Shown here in pieces: positions 5,865-13,447 of a stretch of 64,000 nt of DNA. The stretch is from Geotoga petraea (lineage in GTDB: Bacteria > Thermotogota > Thermotogae > Petrotogales > Petrotogaceae). The DNA lies in NCBI RefSeq assembly GCF_900102615.1, contig NZ_FMYV01000003.1:62001-126000 (forward strand), read 5' to 3'. How positions within the stretch are numbered: position 1 is the first letter of the stretch; every line of letters starts with the position of its first letter. The position numbers and the translations under genes were made by a program. The notes beneath the pieces were generated by a model. That model saw nothing but the letters and a program-made list of their open reading frames with translations, searched no databases and was not told where the DNA came from.

Positions 5865-5900
5865 AAAAAAAATAATCCGTCTATAAGACAGATTATTTTT
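5865..5900 (-). terminator. Intrinsic terminator of the ExbB/ExbD-like operon
   Basis: A 12-bp stem with one mismatch (5871-5882 / 5886-5897) is followed on the minus strand by a run of T. It overlaps the last codons of the upstream gene and precedes the GntR promoter. Confidence 0.7.
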
Positions 5901-6231
5901 CAATTATAGTCAAATTCAATTTTTTTAAAATATCCTCAACTACCAAATAAGTCGTTCTCTTTGCCTTGCTATAATCTATTTCTACTCTTTCTATTTTCTT
6001 AAAAAGGTTTTCAAAAGTAGATCTTAAATTATCTTTGCTCACTAATTCTCCATTAACATATATTTTGTCAGATTCAATAGTAATTAATGGTATTTTTCCT
6101 TCTTCAATCTGAATTCCTGTTGCTTTGGTACCTTGAGTTTCTCCGCCAAGTCCAAATCCTTCAAATGCAAACACTAAAAATAATACTAAAGCTATGATTA
6201 TAGCTATAAGTACAAAAATCAGTTTTTTAAT
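5893..6231 (-). CDS. ExbD/TolR-like periplasmic-domain protein with probable ATT start
   Basis: Small inner-membrane protein: one N-terminal membrane helix (KKLIFVLIAIIIALVLFLV) then a periplasmic domain with the ExbD/TolR pattern. In that domain ITIESDKIYVNGELV is followed by a helix, the strand VEIDYSK, YLVVEDILKKLN and the final strand LTIIEK. The best start is an ATT at 6231, seven bases after an AGGGGTGAT ribosome-binding site that overlaps the stop of the preceding gene. The only conventional alternative is GTG 6291, which has a weak ribosome-binding site and would overlap the upstream gene by 50 bp. The membrane helix lacks the aspartate of true ExbD. Third gene of the ExbB/ExbD-like operon; its cargo or role is unknown. 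Confidence 0.7.
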   Translation of the reverse strand: MKKLIFVLIAIIIALVLFLVFAFEGFGLGGETQGTKATGIQIEEGKIPLITIESDKIYVNGELVSKDNLRSTFENLFKKIERVEIDYSKAKRTTYLVVEDILKKLNLTIIEK

Positions 6232-6241
6232 AATATCACCC

Positions 6242-6967
6242 CTAATAATTGAATAAAAATGGTATTTCTGTGTAATAGATTCTATCAGCACCGTATTTAT
6301 TTTGAATTCTTCTAACTGCTTCTAACAACAAATTATATGAATAAAGAAAAACTTCTTCATCACTCTGTTTTATTGTTATATAAACCATTTGAGGAATTCC
6401 GTTTTTTTTCAAAGAGTTTTCTATTTTATCAGTAAGGCTCCTTAGCTTGCTGTTTCTGCTGTTTTCAGAAATATACTGTTCATAAGTTATTGAAAAATCA
6501 ATTTTCTGATCATTTAAAAATATCTCTGGTTCTTCTCCTTGTATAAGTATATCTACCACAAAGAAATTTTCCATTAAACCTTGATTTTTAATAATATAAT
6601 CTAAATTTATATCTCTATTATCTAATAGTTCTTTTATTTTTTCTAATTCTTCTTCACTTATATCCTCAGGTAATTTTAAATCGTTAAAAGCTTTTTCAAT
6701 TTTATTGGACAGTTCTTTGTAATAATTTTTATAAAAGTTGTTTTGTTTTTCTAATTTTTCGTTTTTATTGGACAGTTCTTGAAAAGCTTTAGAAATATTT
6801 TCTAAGTCATTTTTTAGCTCCAAATTTTCTTGAGCTAACTCTGTACTCTTATTTGTAGCAATATCAGCTTCTTTATTAGTTTCAGATATATTAAATAAAA
6901 AAGCAAAAAGAAGTATCAAAAGGATGTCTACAAATGCAGTGAGTTCAATTATCGTTCTTTTTTTCAT
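6242..6967 (-). CDS. ExbD/TolR-like proton-channel subunit with long coiled coil
   Basis: Inner-membrane protein of 241 aa. The single N-terminal helix (IELTAFVDILLILLFAFLF) carries an aspartate, Asp14, where ExbD/TolR/MotB have their proton-carrying Asp. A Lys/Glu/Asn-rich coiled coil (about residues 35-110) follows, and a C-terminal alpha/beta domain ends in YITIKQ…RIYYTEIPFLFNY. ATG 6967 is chosen because GAGTGAT precedes it; the ORF could start five codons earlier. It overlaps the ExbB-like gene by 23 bp. It probably forms an ion-driven complex with that ExbB-like channel. It is longer than ExbD (about 140 aa) because of the coiled coil, so the periplasmic reach differs. Confidence 0.75.
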   Translation of the reverse strand: MKKRTIIELTAFVDILLILLFAFLFNISETNKEADIATNKSTELAQENLELKNDLENISKAFQELSNKNEKLEKQNNFYKNYYKELSNKIEKAFNDLKLPEDISEEELEKIKELLDNRDINLDYIIKNQGLMENFFVVDILIQGEEPEIFLNDQKIDFSITYEQYISENSRNSKLRSLTDKIENSLKKNGIPQMVYITIKQSDEEVFLYSYNLLLEAVRRIQNKYGADRIYYTEIPFLFNY

Positions 6968-7454
6968 TTGTATCACTCGCATTCTTGAGCATGATATCTA
7001 TTATATAATTGTTATCCTCTATTTTATAGGCAAGTATACCTTCTAATAGTTTAAAAACTATTGCAAATGCAAGCCCTAAAAATGTAGAAGATAAAGCATT
7101 TACAAAGTTTTGAGTTATAATTTCAGAAGTAAGTTCTGAAAGGTTCAAAAATGATGTAACTGTACCTAAAATACCCAAAAGAGGGAAAATACTCGTCAAA
7201 GAACCATAAATGGAGAAATACTTGTTAATAGAATTATTTTCACCTTCAATATAACCAAAGTTGTTTTTTGCGCTGTAGTTTTTATGCATATTTCTGAAAA
7301 ATTCATAAAGTTCTAAATGTTCTGCCCTGTTTGGCCTTAATTTTGAAGAAAGGTTTTTTGATTTAGAGAAAATTATAAAGAATAAAACAAAGTTTCCAAT
7401 TCCAAGAAAAATTATTAACCAATTCACCCAAAAAGAACTTAAAATATTTTCCAT
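6945..7454 (-). CDS. MotA/TolQ/ExbB-family proton channel protein
   Basis: Inner-membrane channel subunit of 169 aa. One N-terminal helix (about residues 10-30), a cytoplasmic loop, then two helices carry the family core: PLLGILGTVTSFL (about 92-104) and NALSSTFLGLAFAIVFKLLE. These match the LGLLGTVxG…ALxxTaxGLxxAI signature of ExbB/TolQ. It couples the ion gradient to work on envelope partners in known relatives. It is the first gene of a three-gene operon with two ExbD-like proteins. Thermotogota have an outer sheath (toga), so energising an envelope process is plausible, but no TonB or receptor gene is seen here. Confidence 0.85.
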   Translation of the reverse strand: MENILSSFWVNWLIIFLGIGNFVLFFIIFSKSKNLSSKLRPNRAEHLELYEFFRNMHKNYSAKNNFGYIEGENNSINKYFSIYGSLTSIFPLLGILGTVTSFLNLSELTSEIITQNFVNALSSTFLGLAFAIVFKLLEGILAYKIEDNNYIIDIMLKNASDTNEKKNDN

Positions 7455-7495: not shown

Positions 7496-7522
7496 AAAAA
7501 AGTGACGCTTATAAACGTCACT
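7496..7522 (-). terminator. Intrinsic terminator after the PrcB-domain gene
   Basis: A 7-bp GC-containing stem (AGTGACG / CGTCACT, 7501-7522) is followed on the minus strand by a T-run. It ends the lipoprotein/subtilase/PrcB locus and separates it from the ExbB-like operon. Confidence 0.75.
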
Positions 7523-7578
7523 TACAATCTATAGTCTATATGAGACATTATTAAAAAACTTTTTGTAGTTATATTTCG

Positions 7579-8136
7579 TTATGGATTTGTTATAACGATT
7601 GTCTTCATAAGTACTTCTTCCGTTTTTTGGTCATCTTCTAGAACAACTACCAAGTTCCATTCACCTGGTTCTATTTGTGATTTATCAATTGCAATTACTT
7701 TTGAAGGATATGTGAATGCTTGAGTTGTAGGACCTTTTGGGATGTTTAAAAATGCATGTACTATAATATTTCTTTCATACAAAAATACATTTTCAATATC
7801 TATGCTATATCCACCAGTTTTTTTTTCACCTGCAGAAATCATAACCTTTAAGTTTTCTTCCATATTCTGTATTTCAATGGTTCTGAATTTTACTCTAAAA
7901 GATTCATCTAAAACTTTAAAATCTAAAATATCTTCCTCATCAAAATCATCTGGAATATCAGAAAGAGTAAATCTATTCATGGGCATAACCTTCTCCATCA
8001 TTTTATCTTCGGCATTTCTTTCAACTTTTTCCTCAATACGAGTTTCGAAGCTTCTTTCTTCTGGCATTAAGAAAAACAAAGAACCTCCAACAGCGACAAT
8101 TGCTGCTCCAATCAAAATCCACCATTTAAAATCCAT
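7579..8136 (-). CDS. PrcB-domain protein, membrane-anchored
   Basis: Protein of 185 aa with one N-terminal membrane helix (WWILIGAAIVAVGGSLFFL), a charged linker, and a C-terminal domain (about residues 90-160). In that domain VMISAGEKKTGGYSIDI and the following strands match the PrcB_C fold, named after the protease complex subunit PrcB of Treponema denticola. The start is ATG 8136, preceded by GGAGGTGGGG; an in-frame extension to 8259 would run into the subtilase gene and its terminator. It lies directly downstream of a subtilase, the same pairing as in the dentilisin locus. A role as chaperone or subunit of the neighbouring protease is inferred. Confidence 0.75.
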   Translation of the reverse strand: MDFKWWILIGAAIVAVGGSLFFLMPEERSFETRIEEKVERNAEDKMMEKVMPMNRFTLSDIPDDFDEEDILDFKVLDESFRVKFRTIEIQNMEENLKVMISAGEKKTGGYSIDIENVFLYERNIIVHAFLNIPKGPTTQAFTYPSKVIAIDKSQIEPGEWNLVVVLEDDQKTEEVLMKTIVITNP

Positions 8137-8163
8137 ATACCCCACCTCCAGTGATATTATATC

Positions 8164-8190
8164 AAAAAAGCGGGGAAATAAATCCCCGCT
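8164..8190 (-). terminator. Intrinsic terminator after the subtilase gene
   Basis: A perfect 8-bp GC-rich stem (AGCGGGGA / TCCCCGCT, 8169-8190) is followed on the minus strand by T6. It lies between the subtilase stop and the PrcB-domain gene, so the latter probably has its own promoter or is read by partial read-through. Confidence 0.85.
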
Positions 8191-8203
8191 TAAATTGTTT
8201 ATA

Positions 8204-10585
8204 TTAATAAATTGTGTAAGGTGCGTCAATTCCATCAAATTCGTCAATAATAGGTCCATTATATAGAGAATGGTTTATTGGTATAGTTTTTCCATTTATA
8301 ATGATATCACCTGTAACAGCATAATCACCGTAATCGTCAGGTATTTTTGATATTGAAACATTATCTAACCATGCGGTGTCTTCATATGATGAAACCATTT
8401 GATCTTTTTTGTAAACAAATTCTATTGTATTTTCACCTGCAAGCAAATTGATAGTTTGAGTTGTCCAATTAACTAATCCGGAGTCTCTAAATACGGTTGT
8501 TCCATTAACTTCTACTATAAAAAAGTCCCAATCTTGTTCGCTAGAAACTTTATAATCAAAACTCATTTTATAACCAAATGTGGCTGGATCAAGAGTAACT
8601 ACTGTAGCAATAGATGATTCCTGTTCATTATCTAAATCAGGGAATGAAACTATATGATTTGTTGGATCATTTGGATCTTCTATAACAGTGGGTATGCCAT
8701 CACCTTGAGTAACCCAATCAAAACCAGAAAAATCCTCTGTTTCAAAATCATCTGTCATAAATGGTGCTGGTAAAGATGGCATATTATCTGAAGAAACTCC
8801 TATATAGAATACCGGTGTTATAATATCTTTTTCTGTAATGTTAGTTGTTGAATCAAAACCTTTAGTTAAAATACGCCCAAAATTTGAATTAAGAATATCT
8901 ATAGAATAGTTACCTGTTGCAGTAGGTGGATTTAACTTGATTTCTATTGTAGATTTAAATTTAATAGATTCGTTTGTTAATCCATCTGAAATTACTTTAT
9001 CTTCTAAAGTCATTGAGTTTTGTTCTTCTCCTCTTAATATCAAAGTTGATGAGGCTAATAAATCAGGTCCACCAATTATAACATCGTATGTATCTGGATC
9101 TATTTGATAAAATCCAACTTTCCCAGTTGAATCTGTTCTAGCATAATATGATGGTCCATCGACTCTTTTTAAAGTAACATAAACACCACTAAGTGGGACT
9201 GATCCTGTACTATCTGTAACAGTTATAATATAATTAGAACCTTTTTTAGATGGTAATGGTGCATTCAATGCAGCAACTGGATTTATAACTCCATATCCAT
9301 AATCTTCATCCCAGCCTGGATTACCTTTATCATCAGCGGTTGATTCGATTAATTTCCTTATTTGGTATGCTGTAGCATCAGGATGTTTTTCAAATAACAA
9401 TGCTGCTAAAGCAGAAACATAAGGGGATGCCATAGATGTTCCGTCCCAATAAGCATATGGGCCATAAAGTGTAGAAACATCTGGGCTACCTACAGGGATA
9501 GTAGATAATATTTGAACTCCAGGTGCTACAACAGACACACTATCTCCTCTTGAAGAGAATTTTGAAACTTTTCCATTTACATCACTAGCCCCAACACCAA
9601 TTATTCCTGGTAATGAATTTGGAGAACCCCAGTTTTCATTAATATGAGTATTTCCTGTTGAAACAACTACTATTGCATCATTCATAAGTGCGTAGTCAAA
9701 GCCAACTTTCAATGTATCTGAGTAACCTGGCCCACCCCAACTGTTTTGAAGAATTTTGGCTCCATTATCTACCGACCAAATTACATTATTAGCAACATAA
9801 AAGTCACCTACAAAACCTGGTACAAATACAGGAGCAACCATTAATGATGCTTCTGGTGATAATCCAGTTATACCTTTACCATCATTTTTTGCAGCTACTA
9901 TTCCTGAAACATGAGTTCCATGATCACCATATGGAACAGATGTGTTTGCCGGGATTAATGTAGCATGATAAGAATCAAACCCATCAGCATATTGTCCGCT
10001 TAAATCTGGGTGACTTGAATCAGAACCACCGTCCATAATAGAAACGATAACGCCTTTACCAGTAGCTATTTTCCAAGCTTCTTCAGCTCTAAGATGTTTA
10101 TTGTTTATAGCCCATTGGTAATCTGTTAAGTCATCACCAATTCCAGCAGCTCTTGTATCCATTTCATTTTTTGAAATTGTAGGTTCATCCAATTCTCTTT
10201 TAAAATTTGGTTCTGCAAACTTGATGCCTTTTGGATTTAACTTTTGAATTTTTTCTAAAGCCTCTTTTGTGGATATATCTAATTTGATATTAGCTATTTT
10301 TAATTTTTCTATTGTTCGAACATTTCTTCTTGAAACTTTTAATGTCTCTAATAATTCATCTAAACTTTCTTGATCAATATAACCTATGTTTATTTGATTT
10401 TCAAAATAATCAAAATTATCTAATTCTTTCATCCGATTTGCAATAAGATCATTTACCAAAGTTACTTCTGTTGGATTTTTAATTGGTTCATTTTTTATTT
10501 TATTTTCTTCATTAGAAGTAAAAGTAGAACAACTTACGAGTAACAAAGAAATAACTATTAAAAATACTATATATAATTTTTTCAT
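8204..10585 (-). CDS. Subtilisin-like serine protease lipoprotein (S8)
   Basis: Secreted, lipid-anchored protease of 793 aa. A lipoprotein signal ends at LLLVSC (Cys19). Residues about 40-140 form an inhibitor-like propeptide. The S8 domain has Asp185 (IMDGGSDSSHPDL), His222 (GDHGTHVSG), oxyanion Asn312 (VVVSTGNTH) and Ser384 (GTSMASP), all intact. After the catalytic domain comes a carboxypeptidase-regulatory-like beta domain (about 450-510), then a beta-sandwich (about 610-755) resembling carbohydrate- or galactose-binding folds. It lies 18 bp after a large Ig-like lipoprotein gene and before a PrcB-domain gene. It probably digests extracellular protein at the cell surface, feeding the peptide importers. 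Confidence 0.93.
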   Translation of the reverse strand: MKKLYIVFLIVISLLLVSCSTFTSNEENKIKNEPIKNPTEVTLVNDLIANRMKELDNFDYFENQINIGYIDQESLDELLETLKVSRRNVRTIEKLKIANIKLDISTKEALEKIQKLNPKGIKFAEPNFKRELDEPTISKNEMDTRAAGIGDDLTDYQWAINNKHLRAEEAWKIATGKGVIVSIMDGGSDSSHPDLSGQYADGFDSYHATLIPANTSVPYGDHGTHVSGIVAAKNDGKGITGLSPEASLMVAPVFVPGFVGDFYVANNVIWSVDNGAKILQNSWGGPGYSDTLKVGFDYALMNDAIVVVSTGNTHINENWGSPNSLPGIIGVGASDVNGKVSKFSSRGDSVSVVAPGVQILSTIPVGSPDVSTLYGPYAYWDGTSMASPYVSALAALLFEKHPDATAYQIRKLIESTADDKGNPGWDEDYGYGVINPVAALNAPLPSKKGSNYIITVTDSTGSVPLSGVYVTLKRVDGPSYYARTDSTGKVGFYQIDPDTYDVIIGGPDLLASSTLILRGEEQNSMTLEDKVISDGLTNESIKFKSTIEIKLNPPTATGNYSIDILNSNFGRILTKGFDSTTNITEKDIITPVFYIGVSSDNMPSLPAPFMTDDFETEDFSGFDWVTQGDGIPTVIEDPNDPTNHIVSFPDLDNEQESSIATVVTLDPATFGYKMSFDYKVSSEQDWDFFIVEVNGTTVFRDSGLVNWTTQTINLLAGENTIEFVYKKDQMVSSYEDTAWLDNVSISKIPDDYGDYAVTGDIIINGKTIPINHSLYNGPIIDEFDGIDAPYTIY

Positions 10586-10603
10586 ATTAAATCAGCCCCC
10601 CTT

Positions 10604-13174
10604 TTATTGTTCTGTCTCTGTAGTGAAATCAGCATGTAAATCTGGTTCAATACCATAGGCTTCGAACCACCAGCCAGCATCTCTGTATCTAAAATCAGCG
10701 CTTAATGAATAAGATGAACTATCTTCATCAAAAGAGTAAGCGTATGCAACATTTACTCCCCAATTATATGATTTTCCATGCTCTAAATTCCCTTCTGGAT
10801 AAAGGAAACTATCTAAAGAATAAGGATTAAAAGTATTCCAAATTATATCTCCGTTATTACCAGTAAACTGAACACTAACATCTTTTTTCCCTTCAGTAGT
10901 AAAGAACTTTCCAATTTGTGAGTTAGTATCAATGTTAACTGTATCAAAAGGAATCATGAGTCCGTTGTCTGATTGATTCCAGTCATAAACAAATATTTGA
11001 TATTCATACACGACTGTTGAGTCAGAAGTCAAAGCTTTATCAGGCCCCCAAGTAAAAGTAGGGTTAACACTAACATTTGAAGAATTGTGTTCTGGTGATT
11101 TTAATTCAACATTAAATTCTTTCATTGGGACAACAGAACCAAGAAGAACTTTTTCACCTTCATAATTGTTGTATACTGGTGAAACCTTATACCATACTTC
11201 TTCTTCTGGTGTAAGTTCAGGTGATTTATCTATATAGTTAGCCATAGGAGATGCTTGAGCTACTCTATATTTCACATAATCAGATCTAACCATAGCTATT
11301 TTTTCAAAGTTTTCTCCGTTAAAAGATCTATAAATATTGTAGCCTTCGGGTTTTGAATATTCATTAGGGTCTATCAATACTGAATATGTATCCCAATCAA
11401 CCCAATATAATTCAATATATAAATTAGAATCGCTTGTATGGCTATCTAAGTCTTTAGGATTTCCACTTTTCCCAATTACAGGGTTGTTATAATAACCAAC
11501 TCCTCTTCTTTTCGTCCATGAAGTCAAGTTGTCGTATGTTGGTTCAAATTCATTAGCTTTCATAATTTTATAAGGATTAGCAGGAGCTGTAACTACAGCT
11601 CTTTGAACGTTAAAATAGTCTATTTTTTGGACCAAATTATCATTGTGATCAAAAATTACAGTGTTCAAATCGTGCATACCATTTTCTAATCCATCCAAAG
11701 TAATTATAGAAGTCATTTTTGTGGCTTCTTGACTGAAACTTCCCATTCTATCAGATGTCATAGTGCTTGAACCAGGGATTCTATCCCAGTTAGAACCATA
11801 AGCTATATATTGATGTTCTGTGTTTTGTTTAATTTCTATAACAGAATAAAAATCTTCTGTAGCTGGTAAAGTTATATCAACAGGAGAATCGTCATTTTTG
11901 TAATAATTAATAGAAACATCATTCAATACATAGTCACCGTCGTATTCATCAGAAGTTCTTATACTAGCTTCTCTCAACTGAGTTTCTATTATTTTGTTAC
12001 CGATAAAATACTCAGGTTTAACATCTATAATTTTAGTTAACGCATGTCCATCTTTTGAAATTTTAATATCAACATATTTTGGCATCAATGGATAGTTTAT
12101 ATCAGCATAGCCATTTGCATTTGTCAATACTTCTTCGATAACGGTATTTCCATCAAGTAATTGAATTTTTGCATTTTGAACAATAGGACCTGAATTATAT
12201 TTAGAAACATATATTTCTAAACCTTTTGTCCAGAATTCAAAAACATCACTTTTTACAGAAGTTTCTCCGTTTGTAGCTTCAACTTGCCAATAATATTTTT
12301 CGTTCAGTTTAGTAAAAACTGAATAATTGGTTTTGGTGGTTTCTGATAAAACTTTAGCTAAGTTTGTGGGGCCTTTTCCAATAAATAAGTTATATTTAAC
12401 ATTGGTGTCTTGACCTATATCCAGACCTCCCCAGCTAACTATAACTTCGCCTTCTAAACCTTTGGTACCATTAGCGGGTGAAAATGAACCTTCTAATCCA
12501 GCTTCATTTGCTACTTGGAATTCATAAGTTGCTGAAGGTCCTGCAACTGAATCAGATAGTTCATAAGGAGTAATTCTTATTTGATAAACTCCTGGGTTTT
12601 CTAAATCAGTAGCTGTTAATGTGTATGATTTTTCTGTTATTTTTTCAGCTAAAACATTAAAATTTCCGTCATTAAATTTTAGTTCTACGTCATAAGTATA
12701 AGTTCTTCCTTCTAACTTTTTACTTACATTCCAATTGAAAGTTTTTGAAGTAGAAACTTTTAAAGACAATAGTTGGTCTTCTGGCACTTCTTCAAAGTAA
12801 ACTTCGTTTATGGAAGAAGTTACCTTTATAGGTAGCTCTGGTGTCGATTTTGAAATATCTTCAACAGTAGTAGTGACTTTTACAGTATACATACCTATAA
12901 CAGAAAGTTCTTCGCCTGGTATAGTTGCTTTTGTAGCACTACCTGAAATAACTTTTGTAGAATTATCTGGTTTAGTTAAAGTAACTTTGGTTGTAGCGGG
13001 GTCATCAGATAAATTAGTAATTCCATAACTAATTTCTAAATCCTCGCCAACAACGGTTTCCAGGTTTTCTGTAGTATCTCTTGTGAATACTACAGATAAA
13101 GAATCTTTAGGTGTACAAGATATGAATAAAAAGGTTACTAACAACAAAGTAACAACAAACAGTATCTTTCTCAT
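10604..13174 (-). CDS. Large surface lipoprotein with Ig/Fn3-like repeats (856 aa)
   Basis: Lipoprotein signal with lipobox LFISC (Cys20), then a chain of beta-sandwich modules: residues about 30-110 (CARDB/Ig-like), 115-225, 230-320 (Fn3-like, YYWQVEATNG), a carboxypeptidase-regulatory-like unit (about 325-400), and further Fn3-like domains to the end. No catalytic motif is seen. It is cotranscribed, 18 bp upstream, with the subtilase lipoprotein. A structural, adhesive or protease-partner role (as PrcA is for dentilisin) is suggested by position and anchoring only; sequence homology to PrcA is not established from what I can see. Confidence 0.8.
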   Translation of the reverse strand: MRKILFVVTLLLVTFLFISCTPKDSLSVVFTRDTTENLETVVGEDLEISYGITNLSDDPATTKVTLTKPDNSTKVISGSATKATIPGEELSVIGMYTVKVTTTVEDISKSTPELPIKVTSSINEVYFEEVPEDQLLSLKVSTSKTFNWNVSKKLEGRTYTYDVELKFNDGNFNVLAEKITEKSYTLTATDLENPGVYQIRITPYELSDSVAGPSATYEFQVANEAGLEGSFSPANGTKGLEGEVIVSWGGLDIGQDTNVKYNLFIGKGPTNLAKVLSETTKTNYSVFTKLNEKYYWQVEATNGETSVKSDVFEFWTKGLEIYVSKYNSGPIVQNAKIQLLDGNTVIEEVLTNANGYADINYPLMPKYVDIKISKDGHALTKIIDVKPEYFIGNKIIETQLREASIRTSDEYDGDYVLNDVSINYYKNDDSPVDITLPATEDFYSVIEIKQNTEHQYIAYGSNWDRIPGSSTMTSDRMGSFSQEATKMTSIITLDGLENGMHDLNTVIFDHNDNLVQKIDYFNVQRAVVTAPANPYKIMKANEFEPTYDNLTSWTKRRGVGYYNNPVIGKSGNPKDLDSHTSDSNLYIELYWVDWDTYSVLIDPNEYSKPEGYNIYRSFNGENFEKIAMVRSDYVKYRVAQASPMANYIDKSPELTPEEEVWYKVSPVYNNYEGEKVLLGSVVPMKEFNVELKSPEHNSSNVSVNPTFTWGPDKALTSDSTVVYEYQIFVYDWNQSDNGLMIPFDTVNIDTNSQIGKFFTTEGKKDVSVQFTGNNGDIIWNTFNPYSLDSFLYPEGNLEHGKSYNWGVNVAYAYSFDEDSSSYSLSADFRYRDAGWWFEAYGIEPDLHADFTTETEQ

Positions 13175-13417: not shown

Positions 13418-13447
13418 TAAAAAATCCAGCTAAATTAATAGCTGGAT
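13418..13447 (-). terminator. Intrinsic terminator of galE
   Basis: A 7-bp stem (ATCCAGC / GCTGGAT, 13424-13447) is followed on the minus strand by a T-run, 16 bp after the galE stop codon. Confidence 0.8.

Follow-up and report, generated by a model that had tools for sequence, protein, structure and literature searches.

A lipoprotein-subtilase gene pair with an adjoining PrcB_C gene in Geotoga petraea and related Thermotogota

Three consecutive minus-strand genes of Geotoga petraea raise the question of whether a protease module of the dentilisin kind exists outside the spirochaetes. This had been proposed in an earlier note on the same DNA, a stretch of 64,000 nucleotides (here termed the window), in which an Ig/Fn3-like lipoprotein, a subtilase lipoprotein and a PrcB-domain protein were read in succession. 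The three genes were confirmed at the positions listed in Table 1 and are referred to as LIP, SUB and PrcB_C (or PrcB), which is also their order on the minus strand.

Table 1. Positions in the window of the three genes and of the nearby hairpins.
Feature	Position	Strand	Description
LIP gene	10604..13174	(-)	Ig/Fn3-like lipoprotein, 856 aa
SUB gene	8204..10585	(-)	fervidolysin-type subtilase lipoprotein, 793 aa
PrcB_C gene	7579..8136	(-)	185 aa
Terminator-like hairpin and T run	8168..8191	(-)	just past SUB stop
Terminator-like hairpin	7500..7523	(-)	3' of PrcB_C gene; cluster end
Terminator-like hairpin	13424..13447	(-)	3' of galE; upstream limit of cluster

The locus and its three products

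SUB was found by Pfam domain search to possess a Fervidolysin_NPro-like prodomain (residues 50-127, 1.7e-11), a Peptidase_S8 domain (176-432, 1.3e-52) and an Ig_DR_A0283-like domain (444-537, 1.9e-31), followed by an extra C-terminal beta-rich region which reaches residue 793. The catalytic triad is intact, with residues D185, H222 and S384, first read in the earlier note, having been checked letter by letter. This combination of a prodomain, an S8 domain with intact triad and an Ig-like domain after it is that of the fervidolysin type. The best solved relative of SUB is fervidolysin (1R6V, residues 54-509, E=1.3e-99), and no structure of PrtP was found among its solved relatives. SUB is the sole S8 gene of its genome and has the lipobox ...LLVS-C19, with Cys19 predicted to be acylated. 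LIP has the lipobox ...FLFIS-C20 and a conserved core spanning approximately residues 320-855.

The assignment of the 185-aa product to PrcB held when its profile was searched, the PrcB_C domain (PF14343) being found at residues 98-150 with 48.2 bits against a gathering cut-off of 24 (E=1.3e-12). The gene is the only one of its type in the genome. Its product begins with a hydrophobic helix and has no lipobox; the AlphaFold model consists of a confident helix at residues 3-22 (a predicted membrane anchor), a disordered linker at ~27-54 and a beta domain at ~70-182 with the motif GEKKTGGY...TQAFTYP. The TGGY part of this motif gave rise to the idea of a chagasin-type (I42) inhibitor, which was dropped because a PDB search with the PrcB model returned no structural match at E<=0.001. 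A plasmid search with PrcB yielded chance matches only.

Between the SUB and PrcB_C genes the terminator claimed previously was identified as a terminator-like hairpin (8191-8168), and the PrcB_C gene has a good ribosome-binding site ahead of its ATG. Sigma-70-like promoter matches at the locus did not outnumber those in shuffled sequence. Directly 3' of PrcB, on the minus strand (5893-7454), are genes for a MotA/TolQ/ExbB-type protein of 169 aa (2.1e-9), a coiled-coil membrane protein of 246 aa and a small membrane protein of 132 aa, the latter two with weak ExbD-like matches. To judge by these matches, the genes look like a divergent proton-channel-driven envelope motor.

Distribution of the pair and of PrcB in Thermotogota

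Relatives of LIP and SUB are widespread in the 103 Thermotogota genomes surveyed, from which 48 subtilase loci of eight families were examined. The LIP gene is directly upstream of SUB on the same strand in 46 of these 48 loci, mostly with a gap of 6-20 nt, and of the two exceptions one is truncated at the edge of the examined stretch. A lipobox is present in nearly all LIP and SUB proteins with a clear start. The LIP and SUB trees are concordant (mirror-tree r=0.85) and both depart from the species families, with family f8 appearing in three groups and Petrotogaceae likewise in three. As the trees agree even against the families, the pair is therefore taken to have been inherited and exchanged as a unit. 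On the sequence evidence, it is the LIP-SUB pair and not the trio that is the unit conserved across the phylum. Two pairs occur in tandem in genome G067 (L139:3674-12735) and more than one pair is also found in other genomes of family f9, suggesting that the pair has expanded within f9.

Both PrcB and the pair are present in 37 genomes, PrcB only in 17, the pair only in 15 and neither in 34. Family history confounds this association at the level of the phylum. The pair occurs without PrcB in genomes of families f4, f6, f10 and f11. The PrcB of families f2, f8 and f9 is longer, of a secreted type, and found amid metabolic genes (PEPCK-, galactose- or aminotransferase-type) far from any pair. 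The PrcB tree follows the Thermotogota families; as far as tree and placement indicate, PrcB is vertically inherited and usually located away from the pair.

Petrotogaceae alone have PrcB directly after SUB, an arrangement found in 10 of the 10 genomes of this family which possess both, and the three-gene neighbourhood that had been noticed in the window is conserved within the family far beyond chance. The PrcB-linked loci occur in four flanking contexts (that of the window, that of G045, that of genus g4, and an ATP-synthase/amidohydrolase site in G035, G036 and genus g6), and their subtilases form two lineages, a single lineage being rejected by the AU test (p=7e-6). A single chromosomal site of genus g4 is occupied by a lineage A trio, LIP-SUB-PrcB, in G041 and G044 and by a lineage C pair, LIP-SUB lacking PrcB, in G038, G039 and G043. 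In G046 and G047 the pair is absent from the conserved site, where only a 124-codon PrcB frame without the N-terminal anchor is found (L099:4862-5236 and L151:6608-6982). In G037 the pair is gone and the PrcB gene is intact. A 280-aa protein without a Pfam match abuts PrcB in genus g3 only (G036, L097:7346-8194; G037, L096:3600-4442).

These observations can be read in two ways. PrcB may have no functional tie to the pair and be an envelope protein of vertical descent which adjoins SUB in Petrotogaceae merely by location; a tree that tracks the families, the metabolic surroundings of PrcB in f2, f8 and f9, its survival in G037 and the hairpin standing between it and SUB are all consistent with this. 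However, the linkage holds through four flanking contexts and two subtilase lineages, the presence of PrcB varies with the type of pair at a single site in genus g4, and after loss of the pair just an anchorless frame is left in G046 and G047. Mere proximity is accordingly regarded as unlikely, though still a serious alternative, and the favoured view is that PrcB works with SUB in Petrotogaceae, although G037 calls for caution. Most PrcB-adjacent relatives have an equivalent hairpin between SUB and PrcB (G000, G045, G036, G051, G035 and G048), which suggests that PrcB is made separately or in smaller amounts, unlike the subunits of dentilisin, which are equimolar (PMC8167434).

Proposed roles of LIP and PrcB

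On balance, the locus more probably than not encodes a two-lipoprotein surface protease with an accessory factor, in which LIP would anchor mature SUB and PrcB would aid it. SUB would be exported as an acylated proenzyme with its lipid on Cys19, ahead of the prodomain. Self-activation near residue 145, a site placed from relatives, would then shed a lipid-bearing piece of ~14.6 kDa (the computed mass of Cys19 to residue 144 being 14.6 kDa), and mature SUB would no longer carry an anchor of its own. LIP, whose gene immediately precedes that of SUB, would keep its lipid and hold mature SUB at the cell surface, which would explain why the LIP and SUB genes are almost never apart. The membrane-anchored PrcB of Petrotogaceae would face the periplasm and, being expressed behind an attenuating hairpin, would assist the folding or stability of SUB in less than equal amounts. 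In dentilisin, the complex loses PrtP-N, an acylated fragment of 15 kDa, while PrcA1 and PrcB remain lipidated and have been proposed as the surface holders of the protease in T. denticola, and PrtP is undetected in T. denticola without PrcB (PMC8167434). The propeptide of fervidolysin is 14 kDa in size (PMC12042847).

It is also conceivable that LIP is a substrate-capture module, or a dedicated substrate or inhibitor of SUB, and not an anchor. LIP consists of successive Ig/Fn3-like beta domains, bMG3 or CarboxypepD_reg matches occur in half of the LIPs, structure prediction of LIP gives a chain of several all-beta domains whose Foldseek matches include alpha-2-macroglobulins, and PrcA is itself cut in a PrtP-dependent manner (PMC8167434). 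However, the bMG3 match of the window LIP is under the curated cut-off, and Foldseek of the LIP model gave only the generic matches of tandem beta domains, with low TM-scores. The lipobox in LIP wherever the start is clear, together with the expected loss by SUB of its own anchor, argues further for anchoring, and a role as capture module, substrate or inhibitor is considered improbable, if worth keeping in mind. Weak matches of 20 LIPs to NikL (NF058648) were read as a common small beta domain and not as an indication of function.

Should LIP act as an anchor, the paired lipoprotein would readily account for the retention on the cell of a subtilase which sheds its own lipid anchor. It would also suggest that fervidolysin-type keratinases be studied and expressed together with the partner. 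For the action of PrcB-type factors, these non-pathogenic thermophiles may offer a safe system.

Relation to dentilisin, fervidolysin and a Deinococcus pair

Comparison with dentilisin was run against the NCBIfam curated models of its subunits (NF033595, NF033596 and NF033597). SUB scored 103.5 bits against the PrtP model NF033595, missing the cut-off of 300, and its higher score of 199.8 bits against mycosin TIGR03921 is yet also under cut-off. The PrcB_C protein scored 26.2 bits against the PrcB model NF033596 (cut-off 125; E=5.9e-6), with only model positions 110-169 of 176 being covered. The PrcA model NF033597 (cut-off 200 bits) had no match in the window genome at E<=10 and no genome of the phylum was above its cut-off, several of the best phylum-wide matches being LIP genes. 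With signal peptides removed, the LIPs of four relatives match the PrcA model at 7e-6, 1.4e-4, 0.0066 and 0.025 (model positions 33-153, 313-412, 200-336 and 359-412), roughly collinearly along the LIPs; these reduced values are used, the match in G078 having been 4e-9 while partly signal peptide and 7e-6 once this was removed. These matches suggest a distant relationship between LIP and PrcA.

By the NCBIfam curated models, the locus is not dentilisin. Nor does it form a single prcB-prcA-prtP operon, its order being LIP-SUB-PrcB, with PrcB last as the earlier note had observed, and a terminator-like hairpin standing ahead of PrcB. The subunits of dentilisin are all lipoproteins, whereas lipoboxes are here found in LIP and SUB and not in the PrcB_C protein. 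Of the dentilisin-like module first proposed, a partial analogy stands and supports the view that the locus works partly like dentilisin; the closer identification does not, with the curated cut-offs missed, the pair as the phylum-wide unit and PrcB often absent or elsewhere. A true dentilisin, orthologous to that of Treponema and transferred between the two phyla, would fit the presence of all three ingredients, the match of LIP-to-SUB order with PrcA-to-PrtP and the weak LIP-PrcA similarity, but it is very improbable, already disfavoured by three missed cut-offs, by a PrcA model without any match in the window genome, by a protease of fervidolysin type and by a non-lipoprotein PrcB whose tree follows Thermotogota families.

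Genome G060 (family f8) encodes a near full-length relative of fervidolysin with LIP directly upstream. The second beta-sandwich, Fervidolysin_SD2 (PF22349), is present in this relative and had no match in SUB. No partner lipoprotein is mentioned in the fervidolysin literature searched.

The ordered LIP-subtilase pair was also identified in four Deinococcus replicons, namely those of D. taeanensis (whose LIP is annotated as two separate frames) and D. aquaticus, and chromosome II and plasmid MP1 of D. radiodurans, the second D. radiodurans pair being that of MP1 (L156:5200-10112). Both D. radiodurans subtilases carry the prodomain, S8 and Ig_DR_A0283-like domains as in SUB. The profiles of Thermotogota and Deinococcus LIPs align with an hhalign probability of 99.9 (E=1.6e-31). 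The LIP of D. radiodurans chromosome II is DRA0282, which scores 971 bits against its family model NF052428 (curated cut-off 800 bits); 11 of 32 aligned LIPs match this model, all under the cut-off and at best with 7.4e-11, and the window LIP has no direct match to it. On these comparisons, Thermotogota LIPs and DRA0282 are homologous and not the same equivalog.

The model NF052428 spans residues 114-615 of the 615-aa DRA0282, at the start of which is a lipoprotein signal with the lipobox LLLASC (L155:5836-7683); the signal is probably missing from the protein as originally annotated. In a passage of PMC7314050, DR_A0282 is described as a DNA-binding repair protein (citing Das and Misra, 2011). 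This role is put in question by a curated model that begins 113 residues past the start and by the presence of the lipoprotein signal. A passage of PMC8779699 that summarises the S-layer complex of D. radiodurans names both DR_A0282 and DR_A0283, and this second-hand listing is the only physical evidence that bears on the pair.

Taken as sequence relationships, the LIP-SUB pair ties together fervidolysin, DR_A0282/DR_A0283 and, more weakly, PrcA/PrtP, and a protease with a dedicated lipid-anchored partner is, by the same measure, inherited together in at least two bacterial phyla. The literatures on dentilisin, the keratinase fervidolysin and DRA0282, linked here, were not found connected in the literature searched. 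It is a credible proposal, held to be slightly less probable than its denial, that fervidolysin, DR_A0283 and PrtP are the catalytic halves of one ancient two-lipoprotein module, in which LIP, DRA0282 and PrcA would dock the self-cleaved enzyme on the outer envelope. If so, fervidolysin would have an overlooked partner subunit and DRA0282 would be a surface lipoprotein.

The locus has several counterparts among known systems. With dentilisin it shares a subtilase lipoprotein gene directly preceded by the gene of another lipoprotein, a PrcB_C protein and an acylated propeptide of similar size, and it differs in having a protease of fervidolysin and not PrtP type and a PrcB which comes last, behind a hairpin, and is no lipoprotein. 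The PrcB_C proteins of families f2, f8 and f9 (e.g., Kole_0652 of Kosmotoga olearia; PMC5674127) have the domain and the TGGY and TQ-F-YP motifs in common with the window protein, but are ~250-290 aa in length, with a signal-peptide-like start, an extra N-terminal domain and no adjoining subtilase. Fervidolysin of Fervidobacterium pennivorans (1R6V) resembles SUB in its prodomain and S8 domain and the Ig-like domain which follows, whereas SUB has another C-terminal region. DR_A0282-DR_A0283 differs in that no PrcB gene adjoins the Deinococcus pair and the Deinococcus subtilase ends in a PPC domain; it is similar in gene order and architecture, in having lipoboxes in both proteins and in its homologous LIP.
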